Virus record (IMG/VR): IMGVR_UViG_3300047994_000371
Location: 1 to 31,141 of that record
Direction: 5' to 3' (one strand)
From: a virus
Length of the DNA: 31,141 nucleotides
Part shown: positions 253-28,682 of the stretch, piece by piece
How positions within the stretch are numbered: position 1 is the stretch's first letter
Layout: each line of letters begins with the position of its first letter
Notes under the pieces: generated by a model
The model's input: the letters and a program-made list of their open reading frames with translations, nothing else
Database searches by the model: none
What the model was told of the DNA's origin: nothing
Made by a program: the position numbers and the translations under genes

Positions 253-615
253 GTGGAAGAGCTGCTCTGGATCCTCGCCCTCGTCGGGGTGATGGGCTGG
301 CTCGCACGCGCGGCCATCCGCCGCAACCGCGTCGCCATCGAGCAGCTCGGCGAGCCGCTTGCCTGCTGCGTCGGCTGTCTCGACACGACCCCCGAGCACG
401 GCGCCGTCGACCGGGGCTGGCACTGGGGAACGATGCACGACGGCGCGCCCGACTGGCTCTGCCCCGCGTGCCGTCTCGGCCAGGTCGACACCCTGGAGGG
501 CCGCCCGATCCTCTACACCTTCCGCGCCGAAGGGCACAGCGATGTCGTATCCGCGATCCGCTCGATCGGTGAGGCCGCGCGGGAGACGGCGCGCGGCCTC
601 ACCTGCGCGGGGTAA
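253..615 (+). CDS. Small membrane protein with zinc-ribbon cysteines and a tape-measure-like C-terminus
   Basis: GTG at 253 is preferred over ATG 223 because GAGG at 244-247 sits five bases upstream and ATG 223 would overlap the previous frame. The 120-residue product has a membrane helix at about residues 4-22, then two Cys pairs (C39/C42 and C70/C73, the second in a WLCPAC context) that could bind zinc. Residues 86-116 closely match residues 5-35 of the tape measure protein encoded at 16952: 22 of 31 positions are identical, including DVVSAIRSI. No known family is recognised for the whole protein. The C-terminal match suggests either a piece of an old tape-measure copy or a protein that mimics the tape-measure start. 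The gene ends three bases before the portal GTG. Confidence 0.7.
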   Translation: MEELLWILALVGVMGWLARAAIRRNRVAIEQLGEPLACCVGCLDTTPEHGAVDRGWHWGTMHDGAPDWLCPACRLGQVDTLEGRPILYTFRAEGHSDVVSAIRSIGEAARETARGLTCAG

Positions 616-618
616 TCC

Positions 619-2856
619 GTGGACGTCGCCAGGCTCTGCATCACCCACCCGACGTACAACGAGCTGCTCTGGCAGCGCTACGACGCCCTCTACCGCGGGG
701 GCGAGGCCTTCCGCGCCAACCTTGACGCCTTCCTCCCTTCCAACCCCGACGAGCCGCCCACGGTCTACGAGGCCCGGAAGAAGGAGGCGCACTACTGCGG
801 GTACATCGGCCCGATCGTCGACTTCTACGCCGCGCTCCTGATGTCCTCGGCGCTGGTGGTCCGGGCCAAGGACCGGAAGCGCCTCGAGGCGGCCGGGCCC
901 GACGCCCCCGACCTCGCGACCGACTCCTACTACGCCCGCTGGAAGGAAGACGTCGACGGCGTCGGCACCGACCTCGTCGACTTCCTCCGTGCCCGGTTCA
1001 CGAGCGCCTGCGTGAAGGGCCGGGCCTGGTGGCTCGTCGAGCGCCCCGACGACGCGGGCAAGCCCGCCGAGACCCTGGCGGAGTGGGAGTCCCGCGGCCT
1101 CGGCGAGGCCGTCGTGGTCCCCCTCGAGAACGAGCAGGTCCTCGACTGGGAGGTCGACCACCGCGGCGAGCTCGTGTGGGCGATCGTCCACACCTGGGAG
1201 CAGCGCCGCGCCAACGTCACCCAGAGCCGCGACCGCGTGCGCGAGGTCTGGCGGATCTACGACCGCGAGGGCATCGAGACCTTCGCCATCGAGTACGACC
1301 CGACCCAGGGCGAGCCGCGCCCGACGACGGCCGTCAAGGTCGGCGGCCGCGTCGCCCACGGCTTCCGCCGGGTCCCCCTCGTGCGGCTCGGCTTCACGGG
1401 GATGCGAGGCGTCCGCTTCAAGCACGCCGGACGCACCCTCAAGCTCTCCTCGTCGGCCCTCGAAGGCTTCTGGGTCCTCCAGCGCCTGGCCGAGGCGCAG
1501 ATCGCACACTTCCGGTCGTCCGCCGCGATGGACTGGAACATCCGCCGCACCTGCTACGCCATGCCCGTCTTCGAGCTGAAGGCGGACGGCGAGGGCAAGC
1601 CGGTTCCCCCGCGGATGGGCACCGGCTACTTCATCATGCTCGCCGAGGGCGAGAAGGCGAGCTGGATCGCTCCGCCCACCGAGCACCTCTCCATCGTCGC
1701 CCAGCGTATCGACACGCTGAAGGACGAAATCTACCGCGTCGCCAACCAGATGGCGCAGGGCGTGGACAACAACGCCGCCGCGGTCGGACGCTCCGCCAAG
1801 TCCAAGGAGGTCGACGCCTCCGCCTCCGAGGTCCTCCTCGGCGTCTACGGCGCCCTCGTGCGCGAGGCGGCCGAGCAGACCTACGAGCTGCTCTCCGAGG
1901 TGCGCGGCGACAGCGACACCATCGCCTGGAGCATCGAGGGCCTGGACAGCTTCACCCTCGCCGACCCCCAGGCGCTCGCCGAGGCCTGCGCCGCGGCCGC
2001 CGCCCAGGTCGAGTCCCCGACGCTCCGCCGCGAGCTCGCCTACCGCCTGGCCGATTCCCTCCTGCCGGGGATGGAGCAGGCGACGCGGGACACCATTCGC
2101 CGCGAGATCGACGAGGCGCTCAAGGCGGCCGACGACGAGGGCGCGGGCCGCGCGCGACGGCGATGCTCCCCCTCCGAGGACAAGGACGACATGGCGAGCT
2201 TCCGGATGGACCACCGCGACGACGCCCTACGGGTGGCGCTCCCCGACGCCCTGAAGGCCAAGCTTCATGTGCGGCCGCTCGGCAAGGCGGCGGCCTTCAC
2301 CGTGTGGGCCGTCGATGGGAACGTCCTCCGGCTCCTCGATGGGGGGTTCTCGGGGGGTGCCAACCCGAGCCGCTACGCCTACGTGCCCGCCAGCGAGCTC
2401 TGGGTAGAGCAGCGCCTAGGCGAGAGCCCGCCCGACCTCGCCGCCCAGGTCCTCCACCAGGCCCTCGAGTGCGCGGTGATGGCGGACGGGACGATCTCCC
2501 ACGCCGCCGCGCACCGGGCCGCGTGCACCTTCGAGGCCCTGCTCCGCAAGATGTTCGCGATGGGCGCGGCCAACGCCGACAGCCCGGCCGCCGCCCTCGC
2601 CCTCGCCGGCGACTGCCTCAAGATCTGGACCGACGCCGCCCGAGCGCTCGCCGAAGGCGCATGCCCCGAGGAGGACGACGCCCCCAACGCCAACCGCCCG
2701 GGTGCCACGGACGAGCCCTCCCCGAGCTCCTCGGGCGAGAAACCCGGCGAGCCCGACCCGGACAGCCAACGGACGCCCGGCGTCCCCACCGCGAAGGCTT
2801 CGCCGAAGCTCTCGAAGGCGGTGCCGGCGCGCCGTCCCCCTCCCCCTCGCCGGTAG
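619..2856 (+). CDS. Portal protein (DUF4055-like) with C-terminal degenerate zincin-like extension
   Basis: This protein forms the ring at the capsid vertex through which DNA is packaged. The N-terminal part fits the DUF4055/portal pattern: a TYNELLWQRYDALYRGGEAF region, then VYEARKKEAHY near residue 50 and a hydrophobic FYAALLMSSALVV segment. GTG 619 lies three bases after the preceding stop; the next ATG (841) would delete the conserved start. The 745-residue length exceeds the roughly 450-550 usual for the family. Residues from about 525 to 650 form a second module (VDGNVLRLLDGGF, YVPASELWVEQ, LHQALE, AAAHRAA). It resembles small phage proteins with an HELxE motif, but here the Glu after His613 is Gln614. 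The last 70 residues are Pro/Ser/Glu-rich and probably disordered. An in-frame ATG at 2191 could in principle start a separate C-terminal product. Confidence 0.85.
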   Translation: MDVARLCITHPTYNELLWQRYDALYRGGEAFRANLDAFLPSNPDEPPTVYEARKKEAHYCGYIGPIVDFYAALLMSSALVVRAKDRKRLEAAGPDAPDLATDSYYARWKEDVDGVGTDLVDFLRARFTSACVKGRAWWLVERPDDAGKPAETLAEWESRGLGEAVVVPLENEQVLDWEVDHRGELVWAIVHTWEQRRANVTQSRDRVREVWRIYDREGIETFAIEYDPTQGEPRPTTAVKVGGRVAHGFRRVPLVRLGFTGMRGVRFKHAGRTLKLSSSALEGFWVLQRLAEAQIAHFRSSAAMDWNIRRTCYAMPVFELKADGEGKPVPPRMGTGYFIMLAEGEKASWIAPPTEHLSIVAQRIDTLKDEIYRVANQMAQGVDNNAAAVGRSAKSKEVDASASEVLLGVYGALVREAAEQTYELLSEVRGDSDTIAWSIEGLDSFTLADPQALAEACAAAAAQVESPTLRRELAYRLADSLLPGMEQATRDTIRREIDEALKAADDEGAGRARRRCSPSEDKDDMASFRMDHRDDALRVALPDALKAKLHVRPLGKAAAFTVWAVDGNVLRLLDGGFSGGANPSRYAYVPASELWVEQRLGESPPDLAAQVLHQALECAVMADGTISHAAAHRAACTFEALLRKMFAMGAANADSPAAALALAGDCLKIWTDAARALAEGACPEEDDAPNANRPGATDEPSPSSSGEKPGEPDPDSQRTPGVPTAKASPKLSKAVPARRPPPPRR

Positions 2857-12883: not shown

Positions 12884-14635
12884 ATGAGCCTCCAAGGCAT
12901 CCCTTCTACGTCGCCGATCCCGCGACGCGCGAGGCAGTTCTCGCCCGCCGCCGGCACCGGGACCGGTGTCGGCTCGCTCCGCCCCGTGGTGCTCGTCGGC
13001 AACAAGCTCTCCGCCGGCTCCGAGACGGTGGAGCAGCTCAATGGGCCGATCCAGTCTGTCCAGGACTGCTACAACCGCTTCGGCCGGCGCAGCGAGATCG
13101 CGTGGATGTACCGCGCGTACGTCGCCGTCGACCAGCAGCCGCTCGTCTATGCGGTGGCCATGGCCGAGGGCGGCGGGGCCACGGCGAGCACCTGCAATTA
13201 CCAGTTCTCCACCACCTCGACCACGCAGACCGTGGTCAACGTCGACTCCTGCAAGGGTCGACTGCAAGTCCAGGTCAACGTCGGCGACCTGATCACGACG
13301 ATCGCCACCAACGTGGCGGCGGCCATCAACGCGGATCCCGATCTGCCGTTCTCCGCCGCGGTCGACACCACGGCGACCACGATCGCGAGCGGGTCCAACA
13401 ACGTGGCCCTCCCCGCTGCGTCGATCAGCGTCGCGTCCACCACGGGCCTTCCGACCTCGGGGACCGTGCTGATCGGGACCCTCAACACCCTGGTCAGCTA
13501 CACCGGGGTCAGCGGTGGAAACACCCTCACCGGTTGCAGCGGCGGCACCGGCACCCTCCTGACGGGCCAGACCGTCACCAACGCCGGCCAGGTCGACATC
13601 ACCACCAGCCAGAAGGGCCCGCGTTCGGCCGGGTGGATCAACAACCTCCGCATGGGTCTCGCGGACCCGACGAACGCCACGACGGTCGCCAAGAGCTCGG
13701 TCACCGCCGGCACCACCGCCGACTCCTGCGTCAACGCCCTCGCGGCCATCGACACGTCGACCTTCACCTACCACGCGATCGCCTGCACCGCCACCTCGTC
13801 CGTCACGTCCTCGGACGGCGGCGTCGGCCAGTACGCCTCCTACATCGCCGGCATCGTCTCGCCCACGGGAAACAAGAGCTCGATGGCGATCTTCGCCGTC
13901 GATGGCACCAGCTCCCAGGCGACCGCGGTCACCCAGAGCGCGGCCGTCAACTCGGTCTGGGCCAAGTGCTACCGCGTACACGGAAACGACTGGCACACGA
14001 GCATGGTGACCGCCCAGCTTACGGCGATTCACCGGAGCCAGGAGGTCAATTACGCGGCCGCGAACCTGACCAACTGGACGCAGAACTCGACGCTCGGGCA
14101 GGTCTTCCAGATCCCCGATCCCTTCACCAAGACGAACCGGCCCTCGAGCGTCGACGAGACCACCGACCTCCAGGGTGGCGTCTCCACGATCGGATTTCGG
14201 ACGGACGGCACGCCGTACATCGTCCGAAGCATCACGACCTACTCGTGGACCGGCTCCTCGAGCACCACCGACTTCCGGGCCCGCGAAGGCCACATCCCGT
14301 CGGTCATGTTCAAGTACTGGGAGGATCTCCAGGCGCTGCTCATCGCCCAGAACCAGCCCAACGTGGCCGCGGACCCTCCGCAAGGGACGAAGCCGGTCGA
14401 CGGGTTCATGTACCCGAGCGCCGTACGGGTCATCAACAACACGCTGATTCAGGCCATGTGCGGGCCGTACCAGAACGGCATGGCGCTGCTCGACCCGTCG
14501 GTGCTCACCACGATGCTCGGAGCGACCGTCATCAAGCTCATGGCCGCGGGCTTCGAGCTGGACGCGGCGATTGCCTGCGTCCGCCACAACCTCTTCGACG
14601 ACACGCTGATCCAGGAGATCGGCCCGGCGTACTGA
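12884..14635 (+). CDS. Tail sheath protein (Mu gpL-like)
   Basis: This is the contractile outer tube. Diagnostic features are the N-terminal LRPVVLVGNKLSAGSETVEQLNGPIQSVQDCYNRFGRRSEIAWMYRAYV (residues about 32-85), the PFSAAVD region, and the C-terminal half, where FEL-x-AAIACVRHNLFDDTLIQEIGPAY ends the protein. It is longer (583 residues) than typical Mu-type sheaths (about 495), partly because of an extra Gly/Thr-rich module at residues 165-233. That module is also present in the fibre protein at 27498. The gene follows its neighbour by three bases and is followed by the tube gene, the standard order for contractile tails. Confidence 0.92.
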   Translation: MSLQGIPSTSPIPRRARQFSPAAGTGTGVGSLRPVVLVGNKLSAGSETVEQLNGPIQSVQDCYNRFGRRSEIAWMYRAYVAVDQQPLVYAVAMAEGGGATASTCNYQFSTTSTTQTVVNVDSCKGRLQVQVNVGDLITTIATNVAAAINADPDLPFSAAVDTTATTIASGSNNVALPAASISVASTTGLPTSGTVLIGTLNTLVSYTGVSGGNTLTGCSGGTGTLLTGQTVTNAGQVDITTSQKGPRSAGWINNLRMGLADPTNATTVAKSSVTAGTTADSCVNALAAIDTSTFTYHAIACTATSSVTSSDGGVGQYASYIAGIVSPTGNKSSMAIFAVDGTSSQATAVTQSAAVNSVWAKCYRVHGNDWHTSMVTAQLTAIHRSQEVNYAAANLTNWTQNSTLGQVFQIPDPFTKTNRPSSVDETTDLQGGVSTIGFRTDGTPYIVRSITTYSWTGSSSTTDFRAREGHIPSVMFKYWEDLQALLIAQNQPNVAADPPQGTKPVDGFMYPSAVRVINNTLIQAMCGPYQNGMALLDPSVLTTMLGATVIKLMAAGFELDAAIACVRHNLFDDTLIQEIGPAY

Positions 14636-15078: not shown

Positions 15079-15666
15079 ATGACCCCCGCCCGCGACCTCG
15101 CCGACCCGCCCGAGCTCGCGCCCGATGTGCTTTGGCGCAGCCTCCTGCCGTTCCGGCCCGAGCGCCTCATCCTCCCCCGCCTCCGAGGCGCCCCCCACAT
15201 CCCCCTCTCCGTGCGGGCCGTCCCGGCCATGCTCGAGCAGCGCGCCCGCGACGTCGGCCACCTCGCCGCCGGCGACGTCCCCGAGCTCCAGCACCCCTGC
15301 GCGGCCCGCGAGGTCCTCGCGCTGGTGCTCCACGTGCCCCAGGGCCGCGCCTTCGCCTCGGCCGCCGCGCTCGGGCGGCTCGAGCAGCCCGAGCTCGCCG
15401 AGCTCACCCGCGCCACGCTGGAGGCGCTGGCCGACATCTGCCCCACGTACGGGCGCAGCAACCCGCGGCGCTGGCGCGAGGCGCTGACGGCGGGGGCGAA
15501 GCACGGCTCCAACCTCAACGAAGCCCTGACCCTCGCCGCTTGCGTGGACGTCACGCTCGGCGGGCTCGTCCCGCGCCCAGACCGCTACTGGGGATGCCCC
15601 TTCCACGAGCTGCTCGACGGCCACTGGCTCGCCTACCAGGCCGCGCGTGACGCCGTGAAGAAGTAG
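15079..15666 (+). CDS. Probable tail-assembly chaperone, first part
   Basis: The gene between tube and tape measure usually encodes a chaperone that binds the tape measure. This 195-residue product is rich in Arg, Leu and helices (ELTRATLEALADICPTYGRSNPRRWREALTAGAKHG). Its residues include SLLPFRPERLILPRLRGAPHIPLSVRAVPAML. No frameshift slippery site is evident at its end. Its frame is the same as that of the next gene, separated only by one TAG and nine sense codons. It may therefore be produced alone or, by readthrough, as a longer fusion. The chaperone role is positional. Confidence 0.6.
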   Translation: MTPARDLADPPELAPDVLWRSLLPFRPERLILPRLRGAPHIPLSVRAVPAMLEQRARDVGHLAAGDVPELQHPCAAREVLALVLHVPQGRAFASAAALGRLEQPELAELTRATLEALADICPTYGRSNPRRWREALTAGAKHGSNLNEALTLAACVDVTLGGLVPRPDRYWGCPFHELLDGHWLAYQAARDAVKK

Positions 15667-16485: not shown

Positions 16486-16827
16486 ATGTTCCGCTGCTTC
16501 GTCGAGCTGGGAAGCCTGCCAGGCGCCGACGATCGCTTCGAGAGGGCCTACCGCGACGCCGTCCAGCAGATGAAGGCCACGCTGGACGCCAAAGCTGCGG
16601 AGGAGCGCGCCGAGCACGCCTACCAGAACCGCACGGGCGACCTGGAGAAGAGCACCACCGCCACCGAGGTCATCTCGGCAGGTGAGCGCGATCTGGTCCA
16701 GCTCCAGGCGGACACGCCCTATGCGGTGTACGTCAACCGTCGGGGTCTGATGCGGATCGACGCGCTCGCCGCCGAAGCGGAGACGGAGCTCGCCTATCTC
16801 TTCGACGGGCTCTTGCTCGTGATCTGA
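16486..16827 (+). CDS. Tail-completion protein (HK97 gp10/Mu gpG-like)
   Basis: The 113-residue product fits the tail-completion pattern: a helical lead (AYRDAVQQMKATLDAKAAEERAE), then YQNRTGDLEKSTTA, where the RTGDL motif is typical, and finally LQADTPYAVYVNRRG, the 'YA-x-YV' segment. Such proteins end the tube and join it to the head. In most phages the gene lies before the sheath; here it lies between the chaperone and the tape measure, so the relation to the neck could have shifted. The stop is followed at once by a hairpin. Confidence 0.7.
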   Translation: MFRCFVELGSLPGADDRFERAYRDAVQQMKATLDAKAAEERAEHAYQNRTGDLEKSTTATEVISAGERDLVQLQADTPYAVYVNRRGLMRIDALAAEAETELAYLFDGLLLVI

Positions 16828-16932
16828 GGCCGAAACACGGCCTGCTCTCGTCACGGCGTGGCCCCTTCTCACGTGCCCGGGGTGGCCGAGGCGCGCTTGC
16901 GCCGCGCGCTGCGTCCTCGGACCGCAGCGCGC
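16827..16932 (+). promoter_or_regulatory. Structured leader before the tape measure gene
   Basis: A hairpin AGGCCG/CGGCCT (16827-16832 with 16838-16843) starts at the last base of the previous stop. A perfect 10-base inverted repeat (GCGCGCTGCG at 16904-16913 with CGCAGCGCGC at 16923-16932) ends 19 bases before the GTG start. CCGAGG (16886-16891) can instead pair with CCTCGG (16915-16920), which would break the 10-base stem. Such exclusive pairings may tune tape-measure translation, though chance is favoured by the high GC content. Confidence 0.4.
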
Positions 16933-16951
16933 CCGCGCCCGGTGACTCGCC

Positions 16952-19252
16952 GTGCCCGAACCCATCATTTACCAGTTTCTCGCCGCCGGTCATGGCGACG
17001 TTGTCTCAGCCATCCGCAGCATCGACGTGGCGGCGCGCGAAAGCGCTCGCACGCTCGAGGCGACGGGTCGCTCGGGCGCGGCCGTAGGGCGAGAGACGGA
17101 GCGCGGGGCCGGCGGCGCACGTCGCGGCCTGACCGAACTCCAGCGGATTGCCCTTCGCGTTGCGGCCGACCAGGAGCGCGCCGCGAAGCGCGCCTCTGCG
17201 GCCCAGGAGCGAGAGGCGGTCCGCGCCGTTGCCGCAGCCAACCGGGCAGGGAAAGCCCAAGAGCGCGCCGCGCAGCAGACCGCAAAGGCGCAAGAGCGCG
17301 CCGCCCAGCAAGCCGCCAAGGCCGCGGAGCGAGCCCACGAGTACGTCTACCGGCTGAAGCAGCGCTACCTCGAGAAGGAGGAGCGCGACGCCGAGCGGTC
17401 GGCACAGAAGATCGCGAAGGCCCAGGAGCGCGCACGGACCGCTCACTTTCGCGACGCTGCCCGGTTCGGCGGCGGCGTCGTCGATCGCGGTGTCAGCGCG
17501 CTCGTCGGGCTCGGGCGATCCGCATTCAGCACCGGGGCCACCCTCGTCGGGGGCGCAGTCCGCGAGTCGATGGAGACGCAAGGCATCGCCAACCGCGTCT
17601 CCGTCAACGCCCGCATGAACGGCCAGGAGGGGGCCGATCCGACCACGCTGCGGAAGGAGTTCGAGCACACCGCGATGGCCACGGGCCAGAACGCCGCCGA
17701 CGTCGGGCGCGCGGCCCAGGCGTACGTCGACCTGACCGGCGACCTCGCTTCCGCGCGACGCTCGCTGGAGACGTTCGGCACCGTCGCCACGGCGACCGGC
17801 GCCACCGTGGAAGACGTCGCCACGGCCGCGGCGAGCATCGGCAAGAACTTCGACGTCAAGAGCATGGCCGACATGCAGAAGGTCATGGCCACCCTGGTCT
17901 TTCAGGGGAAAGGCGGGGCCGTCACGATGCGGGACCTCGCCTCCCAGATGCAGAAGCTGGCGAGCGCCGGCGCCGCCTACAACATGGGAAAGGGTCCCGA
18001 GGCGGTCTCCACCCTGGGCGGTCTCCTCCAGGTGGCGCGCACCGGCACACGCTCGCCGCAGCAAGCCGGCACCGCGGTGGAGAACATCTTCGCCGGGCTC
18101 ACCGCGCACCAGAAGAACCTGAAGGCGGCCGGCATCTCGCTCTACGACAAGCAGGGCGGCAAGCGGAACATCTACGAGGTCCTCGCCGAGACCGTCTCCA
18201 AGGTCGGCGGGACCGACATGGGGAAGAAGTCGTCGGAGCTGCTGAAGATCTTCGGCAAGCAGGGGTCGCGCGGCATCAACCCCCTGATGGCCGCCTACCA
18301 GGACGCGACCCAGGGCCTCCACGGGAAAGAGGCGCAGCAGGCCGGCTACGAAGCGATCAAGGCCGCGCTCGAGTCCGCGCGGAACGCGGCCGCCGACTAC
18401 GCCGAGGTCCAGAAGGACGCGGCGAGCGTCCAGGAGCAGGCGTCGTCCAAGTTGAGCGTCGCCTGGGAGACGCTCAAGTCCGCCGTCGGCGACCGCCTCA
18501 TGCCCACCTTCGCCGAGCTGGTCGGCAAGCTCGCCAGTGACGGCAAGGCGCTCGACGCCTTCCTCGTGGCGGTCGACCTCGCCGCCGACGGACTCGCGGC
18601 GGTCACCGACAGGCTGAAGGAAGCGGGCATCATCTCCGGCGGGACGCCCGAGGAGAAGGCCGCCGCGGCGGACAAGCAAGCCAACCGCCTCGGCAAGAGC
18701 GCCGACCGGATGCTCGGCGACCTCGCGGCCTACGGCGACCCGTCGCAGCTCTCGGGCCAGAAGCTCGACGAGTACAACGAGAAGAAGGCCGCGTACGACG
18801 CCGCGCGTGCCAAGGCCAACAGCGCACGCGATGACGCGAACACGCTCGGGGCCAAGGCCAACGAGCAGAGCGACGCGATCAAGGCCATCGGCAGCCTCAC
18901 CGGGGACGATGCCGCGAAAGAGTACGAGGCCCGGTACCGCAAGGCCGGCGGCAAGGTCCTCGGCCCCACCGACGCGAGGGATATCGGCACGCTCGGCGGC
19001 CTGATCCCGAACGACGTCCTGCCGGGGCTCCTCGGAGAGAAGGCCGAGCAGCGCGAGATTCGGCACGCGTACGAGGGCGACGACGGCCGCGGCGGGGGTG
19101 GCGCGGGCGCCGACAAGATGGGCGCCGCCGCGGACAAGCACGCGAGCGCCGCCGACAAGCTCATGAGCGCCGCGGTCGCCCTCGCTTCCATTGTCAGCGG
19201 CGGCAGCATCGGCGGAGCTTCCTTTGTGCCGCGCGTACCAGGTGCCAAATGA
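16952..19252 (+). CDS. Tape measure protein (TP901-like)
   Basis: This protein sets tail length and is ejected with DNA. GTG 16952 is the start because the conserved N-terminus IIYQFLAAGHGDVVSAIRSI follows directly. Residues about 40-175 are charged coiled coil with an 11-residue repeat (KAQERAAQQ-type, residues 101-133). The core (about 180-520) has typical tape-measure elements: HTAMATGQNAADVGRAAQAYVDLTGD, VATATGATVEDVATAAASIGKNFD, MRDLASQMQKLASAG and ENIFAGLTAHQKNLKAAGISLYDKQGGKRNIYEVLAETVSKVG. The C-terminus is Ala/Gly-rich. At 766 residues, roughly 0.15 nm per residue predicts a tail near 115 nm (general rule, not measured). The stop overlaps the next ATG. Codons at its start include more A/T-ending ones than the rest. 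Confidence 0.92.
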   Translation: MPEPIIYQFLAAGHGDVVSAIRSIDVAARESARTLEATGRSGAAVGRETERGAGGARRGLTELQRIALRVAADQERAAKRASAAQEREAVRAVAAANRAGKAQERAAQQTAKAQERAAQQAAKAAERAHEYVYRLKQRYLEKEERDAERSAQKIAKAQERARTAHFRDAARFGGGVVDRGVSALVGLGRSAFSTGATLVGGAVRESMETQGIANRVSVNARMNGQEGADPTTLRKEFEHTAMATGQNAADVGRAAQAYVDLTGDLASARRSLETFGTVATATGATVEDVATAAASIGKNFDVKSMADMQKVMATLVFQGKGGAVTMRDLASQMQKLASAGAAYNMGKGPEAVSTLGGLLQVARTGTRSPQQAGTAVENIFAGLTAHQKNLKAAGISLYDKQGGKRNIYEVLAETVSKVGGTDMGKKSSELLKIFGKQGSRGINPLMAAYQDATQGLHGKEAQQAGYEAIKAALESARNAAADYAEVQKDAASVQEQASSKLSVAWETLKSAVGDRLMPTFAELVGKLASDGKALDAFLVAVDLAADGLAAVTDRLKEAGIISGGTPEEKAAAADKQANRLGKSADRMLGDLAAYGDPSQLSGQKLDEYNEKKAAYDAARAKANSARDDANTLGAKANEQSDAIKAIGSLTGDDAAKEYEARYRKAGGKVLGPTDARDIGTLGGLIPNDVLPGLLGEKAEQREIRHAYEGDDGRGGGGAGADKMGAAADKHASAADKLMSAAVALASIVSGGSIGGASFVPRVPGAK
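17252..17350 (+). repeat. 11-residue (33-base) tandem repeat in tape measure
   Basis: Three consecutive 33-base units encode KAQERAAQQTA, KAQERAAQQAA and KAAERAHEYVY (residues 101-133). An 11-residue period is typical of right-handed coiled coils. It is a coding repeat; the units have drifted at silent positions, so the repeat is not recent. Confidence 0.7.
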
Positions 19253-27497: not shown

Positions 27498-28682
27498 ATG
27501 AGCTTCCCCCTGACGCCGGCATCGCCCTTCGTGGCCTTCACGACGGTCATCACGTCGGCGTTCCTGAACGCCGTGCGCGTCTCTATCAACGAGGCGCTCG
27601 ACGGCACCGGCGGCGGGACGTATGCACCCGGCGCGCAGATCGTCATCGGCGGCTCGGGGCTCCGCGCCGATCCGTTCTCGGGCGCGGTGCGCGCGGGCAC
27701 GCCCTCCACCACCATCGCCTCTGGCAGCAACAACCAGGCGCTGCCCCAGGCGACGATCTACGTCGGGTCGACGATTGGCGCGCCCACCTCGGGGACCGCC
27801 TGGATCCCCGCCCTCGGCGCCCTGATCGCCTACACCGGGGTGACCTCCGTCACCCTCACCGGCTGCACGCTCGTCGCGGGGCCCGAGGGTGGCCCCGGGC
27901 TCGACCTCGCCACCGGCCAGGCCGTCTACTTCAACGGCGCGCTCCTCATCGACACCAACGCCGGGCTGGCCGTGAACGGCGTCCAGATGGTCAACGGCTC
28001 GATCATCCTCGACGGATCCACCAGCAACGGCTCCCTCACGGTCCAGAACGGGGGATCGATCTCCGTGGTCGGGGGCACGGTCGAGTTCTTCGCCTCGACG
28101 GCGCTCGAGCTGGCGCCGGGCGCGCACATGACGGTGGGTGGCACGTCGGGCACCCCCGCCACGGTCGAGTTCGAGAACTACTCGACGTGTACCTTCGACA
28201 ACGGCTCGACGCTCACCGGCGCCAGCGGATCGCCGGGGGCGACGCTCGCGTGGCACGGCCCTGCGACCTTCAGCGGGGCCACCACGTTGAGCGGGGCCAC
28301 TACGCAGACGGCGCTTTTTACGCGCAGCGGCACGAACGGCCGTACCGCGCTCCGCTACGCGGTGCTCACGAGCGACACGGCGCTCACCGTCGACCCATCA
28401 TCGTACGACGCCATTCTCGCGCAATCGGTTGGGTTCACCGCCGACCGCAACTGGACGTTCTCCGCGCCTGCTGGTGGGATTTGCACCGAAGTGGTTGTGA
28501 ACGGCATCGCATTCTCCGGCTACCAGGGCTCTCATAACCTGTACATCTACGGCGTTGGTGGCTCGGTCGGCGGCAACCTGCTGTTCCACTACAACCCGGC
28601 CGGCGGCGGAACCTCCACGCCCGCCGGCGCGTTCATGATCTACTACGACCCCACCCTCGGCGATTGGTACCCCGTGGCGTAG
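27498..28682 (+). CDS. Tail fibre protein with beta-helix-like repeats
   Basis: The 394-residue product starts with a baseplate-attachment-like N-terminus (PFVAFTTVITSAFLNAVRVSINEALDG). Residues 71-145 form a module shared with the sheath protein (TTIASGSNN to TGQAVYF). Short strand repeats follow (GSIILDGSTSNGSLTVQNGGSISVVGGTVEFF, LELAPGAHMTVGGTSG), as in a trimeric beta-helix. The C-terminal 120 residues (ALFTRSGTNG onward) are a separate tip whose codons end in A/T much more often than the rest, which points to recent exchange. The stop lies four bases before the convergent minus-strand gene. Confidence 0.7.
   Translation: MSFPLTPASPFVAFTTVITSAFLNAVRVSINEALDGTGGGTYAPGAQIVIGGSGLRADPFSGAVRAGTPSTTIASGSNNQALPQATIYVGSTIGAPTSGTAWIPALGALIAYTGVTSVTLTGCTLVAGPEGGPGLDLATGQAVYFNGALLIDTNAGLAVNGVQMVNGSIILDGSTSNGSLTVQNGGSISVVGGTVEFFASTALELAPGAHMTVGGTSGTPATVEFENYSTCTFDNGSTLTGASGSPGATLAWHGPATFSGATTLSGATTQTALFTRSGTNGRTALRYAVLTSDTALTVDPSSYDAILAQSVGFTADRNWTFSAPAGGICTEVVVNGIAFSGYQGSHNLYIYGVGGSVGGNLLFHYNPAGGGTSTPAGAFMIYYDPTLGDWYPVA

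Follow-up and report, generated by a model that had tools for sequence, protein, structure and literature searches.

The window analysed here is the whole of a 31,141-base IMG/VR virus record, which represents an incomplete contractile-tailed phage (myovirus). By profile searches, it encodes a portal, an SU10-like major capsid protein, a sheath, a PhageMin_Tail tape measure, a GpP-like hub and a baseplate J protein. A small gene near the window start and the gene of the tape measure protein (TMP) have a segment in common. The features involved are the following, with L007 denoting sequence of G001, a relative in the tail module.

253..615, plus strand: small protein of 120 aa with a GTG start, comprising a membrane helix, a rubredoxin-like Cys4 domain and a TMP-derived C-terminal segment
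262..318, plus strand: predicted membrane helix, residues 4-22 (LLWILALVGVMGWLARAAI), with a hydropathy mean of 2.02 over 19 residues
364..483, plus strand: rubredoxin-like Cys4 domain, residues 38-77 (CVGC ... DWLCPAC), phmmer E 6e-4 to 1smm
505..612 (core 508-600), plus strand: copy of the TMP N-terminal segment, residues 85-120, 67% identical over 36 aa, E 5e-11
619..2856, plus strand: portal protein, phrog_145 E 5e-32, the next gene 3' of the small protein
16486..16827, plus strand: candidate tail completion protein (TCP; HK97-gp10-like), the proposed partner of the segment, PF04883 below cutoff, directly upstream of the TMP
16952..19252, plus strand: TMP of 766 aa, PF10145 E 4e-16 and phrog_794 E 7e-12
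16961..17068, plus strand: TMP residues 4-39, the segment in common with the small protein, at the same place in L007

The small gene has a GC3 of 0.91 like the adjacent genes. In a single-sequence model of its product, residues 4-22 form a helix with pLDDT above 90 and the rest is poor. This confident helix and the hydropathy bear out, as a prediction, the membrane helix that an earlier note on this DNA had claimed. The motif RRNR directly follows the helix, so by the positive-inside rule the rest of the protein is predicted to be cytoplasmic.

The same note had called the protein a zinc ribbon and pointed to two Cys pairs. The pairs are there (CVGC and CPAC), but a rubredoxin-like domain fits better than a zinc ribbon, by the phmmer match. 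Further scores of this domain are E 0.013 with NCBIfam and E 0.17 with Pfam, and residues 38-77 score 12.4 bits against rubredoxin PF00301, below the curated cutoff of 23 bits. As to the CxxCG knuckles of rubredoxin, the small protein has CVGC-L and CPAC-R, with the cysteines present and the glycines absent. No relatives of the small protein were found in IMG/VR, phages or plasmids by short-conserved-peptide scans, which miss remote relatives. A hydrophobic 24-aa ORF at 170-244 (MLTTLVLVAPFASVALAMWIGGAD) ends 8 bases 5' of the small gene start; it has no family match and is possibly a translated membrane peptide.

Residues 86-116 of the small protein (508-600) and residues 5-35 of the TMP (16964-17056) are identical at 22 of 31 positions, with DVVSAIRSI conserved, exactly as counted before. 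The match extends to 36 residues, small protein 85-120 against TMP 4-39, so that it begins at about residue 4 of the TMP and reaches the last residue of the small protein. Its Smith-Waterman score is 111 versus a maximum of 49 in 300 shuffles of the same two proteins, and the score and the blastp E value together rule out a chance match. The segment is 67% identical to the window TMP and 58% to the L007 TMP at their N-termini.

At the nucleotide level, the core is identical at 61 of 93 positions, and the differences fall 5, 8 and 19 at the first, second and third codon positions. Since the third positions dominate, the conservation is at the protein level and a conserved DNA element is ruled out. 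Recent copying from the phage's own TMP is ruled out too, by the 61/93 identity.

When 38 predicted window ORFs, some few of them in an approximate or wrong frame, were compared all against all, the sole other cross-match at E ≤ 0.05 was between the sheath and ORF 27498-28682. Here sheath residues 155-241 (13346-13606) are 54% identical to residues 59-153 of the ORF (27672-27956; E 2e-14). The segment looks like an insert in the sheath, since the L007 sheath aligns on both flanks and not across residues ~162-231. A tblastn search of the phages collection with it gave no match.

A pattern search of IMG/VR with both copies of the TMP segment found one further genome, G001, whose tape measure begins with this segment (MPEPIVYQFRPEGHGDVVSAIRSI). 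This TMP (L007), 54% identical to the window TMP over 654 aa, has it at the same place with 19/31 identities and DVVSAIRSI invariant. G001 holds neither a second copy of the segment nor a relative of the small protein. The tape measure is therefore where the segment belongs; its presence in the small protein is most simply secondary, as a captured or duplicated copy. By short-conserved-peptide scans, which miss remote relatives, G001 was the only relative of the TMP and the hub found in IMG/VR, and no TMP relatives were found in GTDB genomes. A Gordonia phage gave a weak match to the peptide (E 3), taken as chance.

The earlier note had argued from the codons that the match is held by selection and not by recent copying. 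Its count is exact, with 9 same and 13 different codons among the 22 common residues, but as it stands the argument does not prove selection on the small protein. The small copy is about equidistant from both TMPs, with 61 of the 93 nt identical to the window TMP and 63 to the L007 TMP, while the two TMPs are identical at 62. The three copies form a star, in which synonymous distances are close to saturation or past it, and capture from an unsampled diverged TMP would give the same codons.

Of the 19 positions at which the two TMPs agree, the copy retains 17. In a simulation, 0.2 neutral substitutions per site retain 17/19 in <2% of runs and 0.1 in about a quarter. Neutral drift of at least 0.2 substitutions per site is excluded (P < 0.02). 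The simulation rules out long neutral drift only, and about 0.1 substitutions per site after a capture would still fit the retention. From this, either the capture was fairly recent and from a different TMP lineage, or the copy has been constrained in the small protein.

By similarity, the phage genome is a mosaic, its head genes resembling L006 and MW202476 and its tail genes L007. For the head genes the nearest sequences are L006 (portal 55%, capsid 52%) and MW202476 (portal 37%). Between ~10.6 kb and 25 kb the window matches L007/G001, at 69% for the sheath, 54% for the tape measure, 75% for the hub and 61% for J. Portal residues 479-646 are 41% identical to the C-terminal part of the G001 portal (L010:942-1445), and the N-terminal part has matches in L006 and MW202476 alone, so the portal domains seem to have been exchanged separately.

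The small gene lies just upstream of the portal gene, where relatives have the terminase-portal boundary. The window starts only ~250 bases before it, so the phage's own terminase is outside the window. The terminase-portal gap is 14 bases in L006 (L006:3489-3502) and 5 bases in MW202476, with no gene in either, and the interval in G001 (L010) holds two ORFs, one short and signal-like, the other of 146 aa and related to window ORF 9493. The small gene is absent from this place in all of them. Such an interval, empty in two relatives, filled with other genes in G001 and with the small gene here, indicates that it accepts accessory genes and that the small gene is an accessory insertion.

A partner for the segment is suggested by the neck of phage 80alpha. 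In its cryo-EM model, TMP residues 1-37, a strand and a helix, dock on the TCP: three TMPs each contribute a strand to a sheet with the TCP hairpin, and their helices pack with the TCP helices (PMC11661146). The starts of the 80alpha TMP, P2 gpT and the segment are alike by eye, unscored, with a hydrophobic stretch and then a probable helix. The copy spans TMP 4-39 up to the stop of the small protein, close to the unit ordered in 80alpha.

The ORF at 16486-16827 is a candidate TCP, a weak one. It is the only PF04883 place in the window (16.7 bits, E 3.5e-4 for one genome; cutoff 21.4 bits) and its orthologue is the only one in G001 (13.7 bits, E 5e-3, below cutoff), directly upstream of the TMP in both. 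The G001/L007 orthologue also matches phrog_5, 'tail completion or Neck1', weakly (E 0.014). 80alpha gp51 is a clear PF04883 member, and a profile comparison of the ORF 16486 protein with gp51 found nothing. The HK97-gp10/TCP fold has a long N-terminal helix, a β-hairpin with a short helix and a C-terminal helix; the model of the candidate, poor with a mean pLDDT of 52, has helices at 14-58, 78-84 and 91-110 and no hairpin. PDB profile matches of the candidate to Pizza proteins are spurious, these being designed repeat proteins. The candidate and the TMP are 124 bases apart (16828-16951); the gap in L007 is 2 bases.

The earlier note suggested that the peptide is a binding element used by two proteins, for instance for a common partner at the top of the tube or a chaperone. 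The tube-top part fits the conservation of the segment at the L007 TMP N-terminus and the docking in 80alpha. As to the partner, the best candidate is ORF 16486-16827 and not the tail chaperones at 15079 and 15694.

We propose, with a probability of roughly 0.35, that the small protein is a membrane-anchored mimic of the TMP end that binds the TCP or the TMP. The shared peptide is the TMP N-terminal segment, which in 80alpha docks the TMP end onto the TCP at the head-proximal tail end. A copy of it has become the C-terminal end of an accessory protein, made up of the membrane helix and the rubredoxin-like domain, whose gene is inserted between terminase and portal. The anchored copy would bind the TCP, by analogy with the same stretch in 80alpha, or TMP N-termini. 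In this way the small protein would hold the tail end or compete for it, either while tails are assembled or when a related phage enters. The homology, the place of the segment in the TMPs of two genomes, the order of the domains and the absence of the gene from this place in relatives are observed, and the docking is known from the 80alpha literature; we infer that the copy binds, how the protein lies in the membrane and what either would do to assembly or superinfection. A further and less probable reading is that the phage mimics its own TMP end with a metal-binding, membrane-anchored protein, so as to capture TCP or TMP ends and control tail completion or exclude relatives.

Several points weigh against the mimic. 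Only one genome carries the copy, and a recent capture with no function would leave an identical picture. The TCP candidate scores below the Pfam cutoff, its profile comparison with 80alpha gp51 was negative, and its model is poor. Moreover, 80alpha is a siphophage and the phage here a myovirus, their TMP N-termini being likened by eye.

Equally likely as the mimic is an accidental fusion, in which illegitimate recombination recently put the TMP 5' end of a related phage in frame behind the accessory gene, with no function resulting. The mosaic genome with head and tail genes of different affinities favours such an event, and so does the reuse of a sheath segment in ORF 27498 of the same genome. 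A copy taken from a third TMP should lie about equally far from both TMPs, as this one does. Neutral drift of about 0.1 substitutions per site since then fits the data, and the copy is known from a single genome. Against it, an in-frame and seemingly complete unit that ends near the unit boundary exceeds what a random breakpoint needs.

Superinfection exclusion, a more specific idea, is a less probable function. The membrane-anchored segment, as a putative anti-phage element, would engage the TMP or the TCP of an incoming related phage and block its DNA entry. There are precedents acting on incoming TMPs, Ltp of TP-J34 (PMC3952083) and SNIPE (PMC13190303), and the small gene is an accessory insertion. 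However, the proposed target of Ltp is the C-terminal region of the TMP and not its N-terminus (PMC3952083), and no known exclusion family was recognised in the small protein. Prophage expression is not indicated either, since the gene lies inside the virion gene cluster and a sigma-70 scan, of little power here, found no promoter-like site in 1-900.

Least probable is that the segment binds the tail chaperones, as the earlier note proposed: the 15079 and 15694 products are in the usual chaperone position and conserved in L007 (57-58%), but their annotation is weak (phrog_1442 E 0.064), and in TP901-1 chaperone binding is linked to hydrophobic TMP regions, while mutants point to the TMP N-terminus being at the head-tail end (PMC5099701).

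The finding singles out a short unit at the head-proximal end of the TMP, whose contact has been seen in atomic detail in a siphophage neck (80alpha, PMC11661146). If the copy binds, it is a natural tool for asking what the TMP N-terminus contacts in a contractile tail, and the phage would then be one that puts an imitation of part of its own tail on a membrane protein.

Among the known systems, the closest to the segment is the 80alpha neck. The element there is the N-terminal ~37 TMP residues too, a strand and a helix in 80alpha and similar by eye here. It is described only in the TMP of that siphophage, whereas in our myophage it also ends a membrane protein. As for the rest of the small protein, it is like rubredoxin in the two CxxC knuckles with the ...DWLCPAC... 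stretch (E 6e-4 to 1smm), and differs in having no Gly after the knuckles, in scoring below the Pfam cutoff and in being fused to the membrane helix and the TMP segment.

The Ltp lipoproteins, exemplified in TP-J34, serve superinfection exclusion by targeting the TMP, and resemble the small protein in being phage-encoded and membrane-anchored, the latter by prediction here (PMC3952083). They are surface-exposed and not described with TMP-derived sequence, whereas the small protein carries such a segment. SNIPE is a bacterial defence membrane nuclease that associates with the TMP, and it has a single N-terminal membrane helix with the rest cytoplasmic, as predicted for the small protein (PMC13190303). 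Some of its relatives carry virion-protein-like segments, in their case tail-needle-like N-terminal regions, as the small protein carries its TMP segment. The small protein is far smaller, without a nuclease domain, and SNIPE is bacterial. Finally, the Tai inhibitors are small phage-encoded accessory proteins that interfere with tail assembly, TaiEcA targeting the central tail fibre (PMC11364771). The small protein is likened to them by description, both being small phage accessory proteins.
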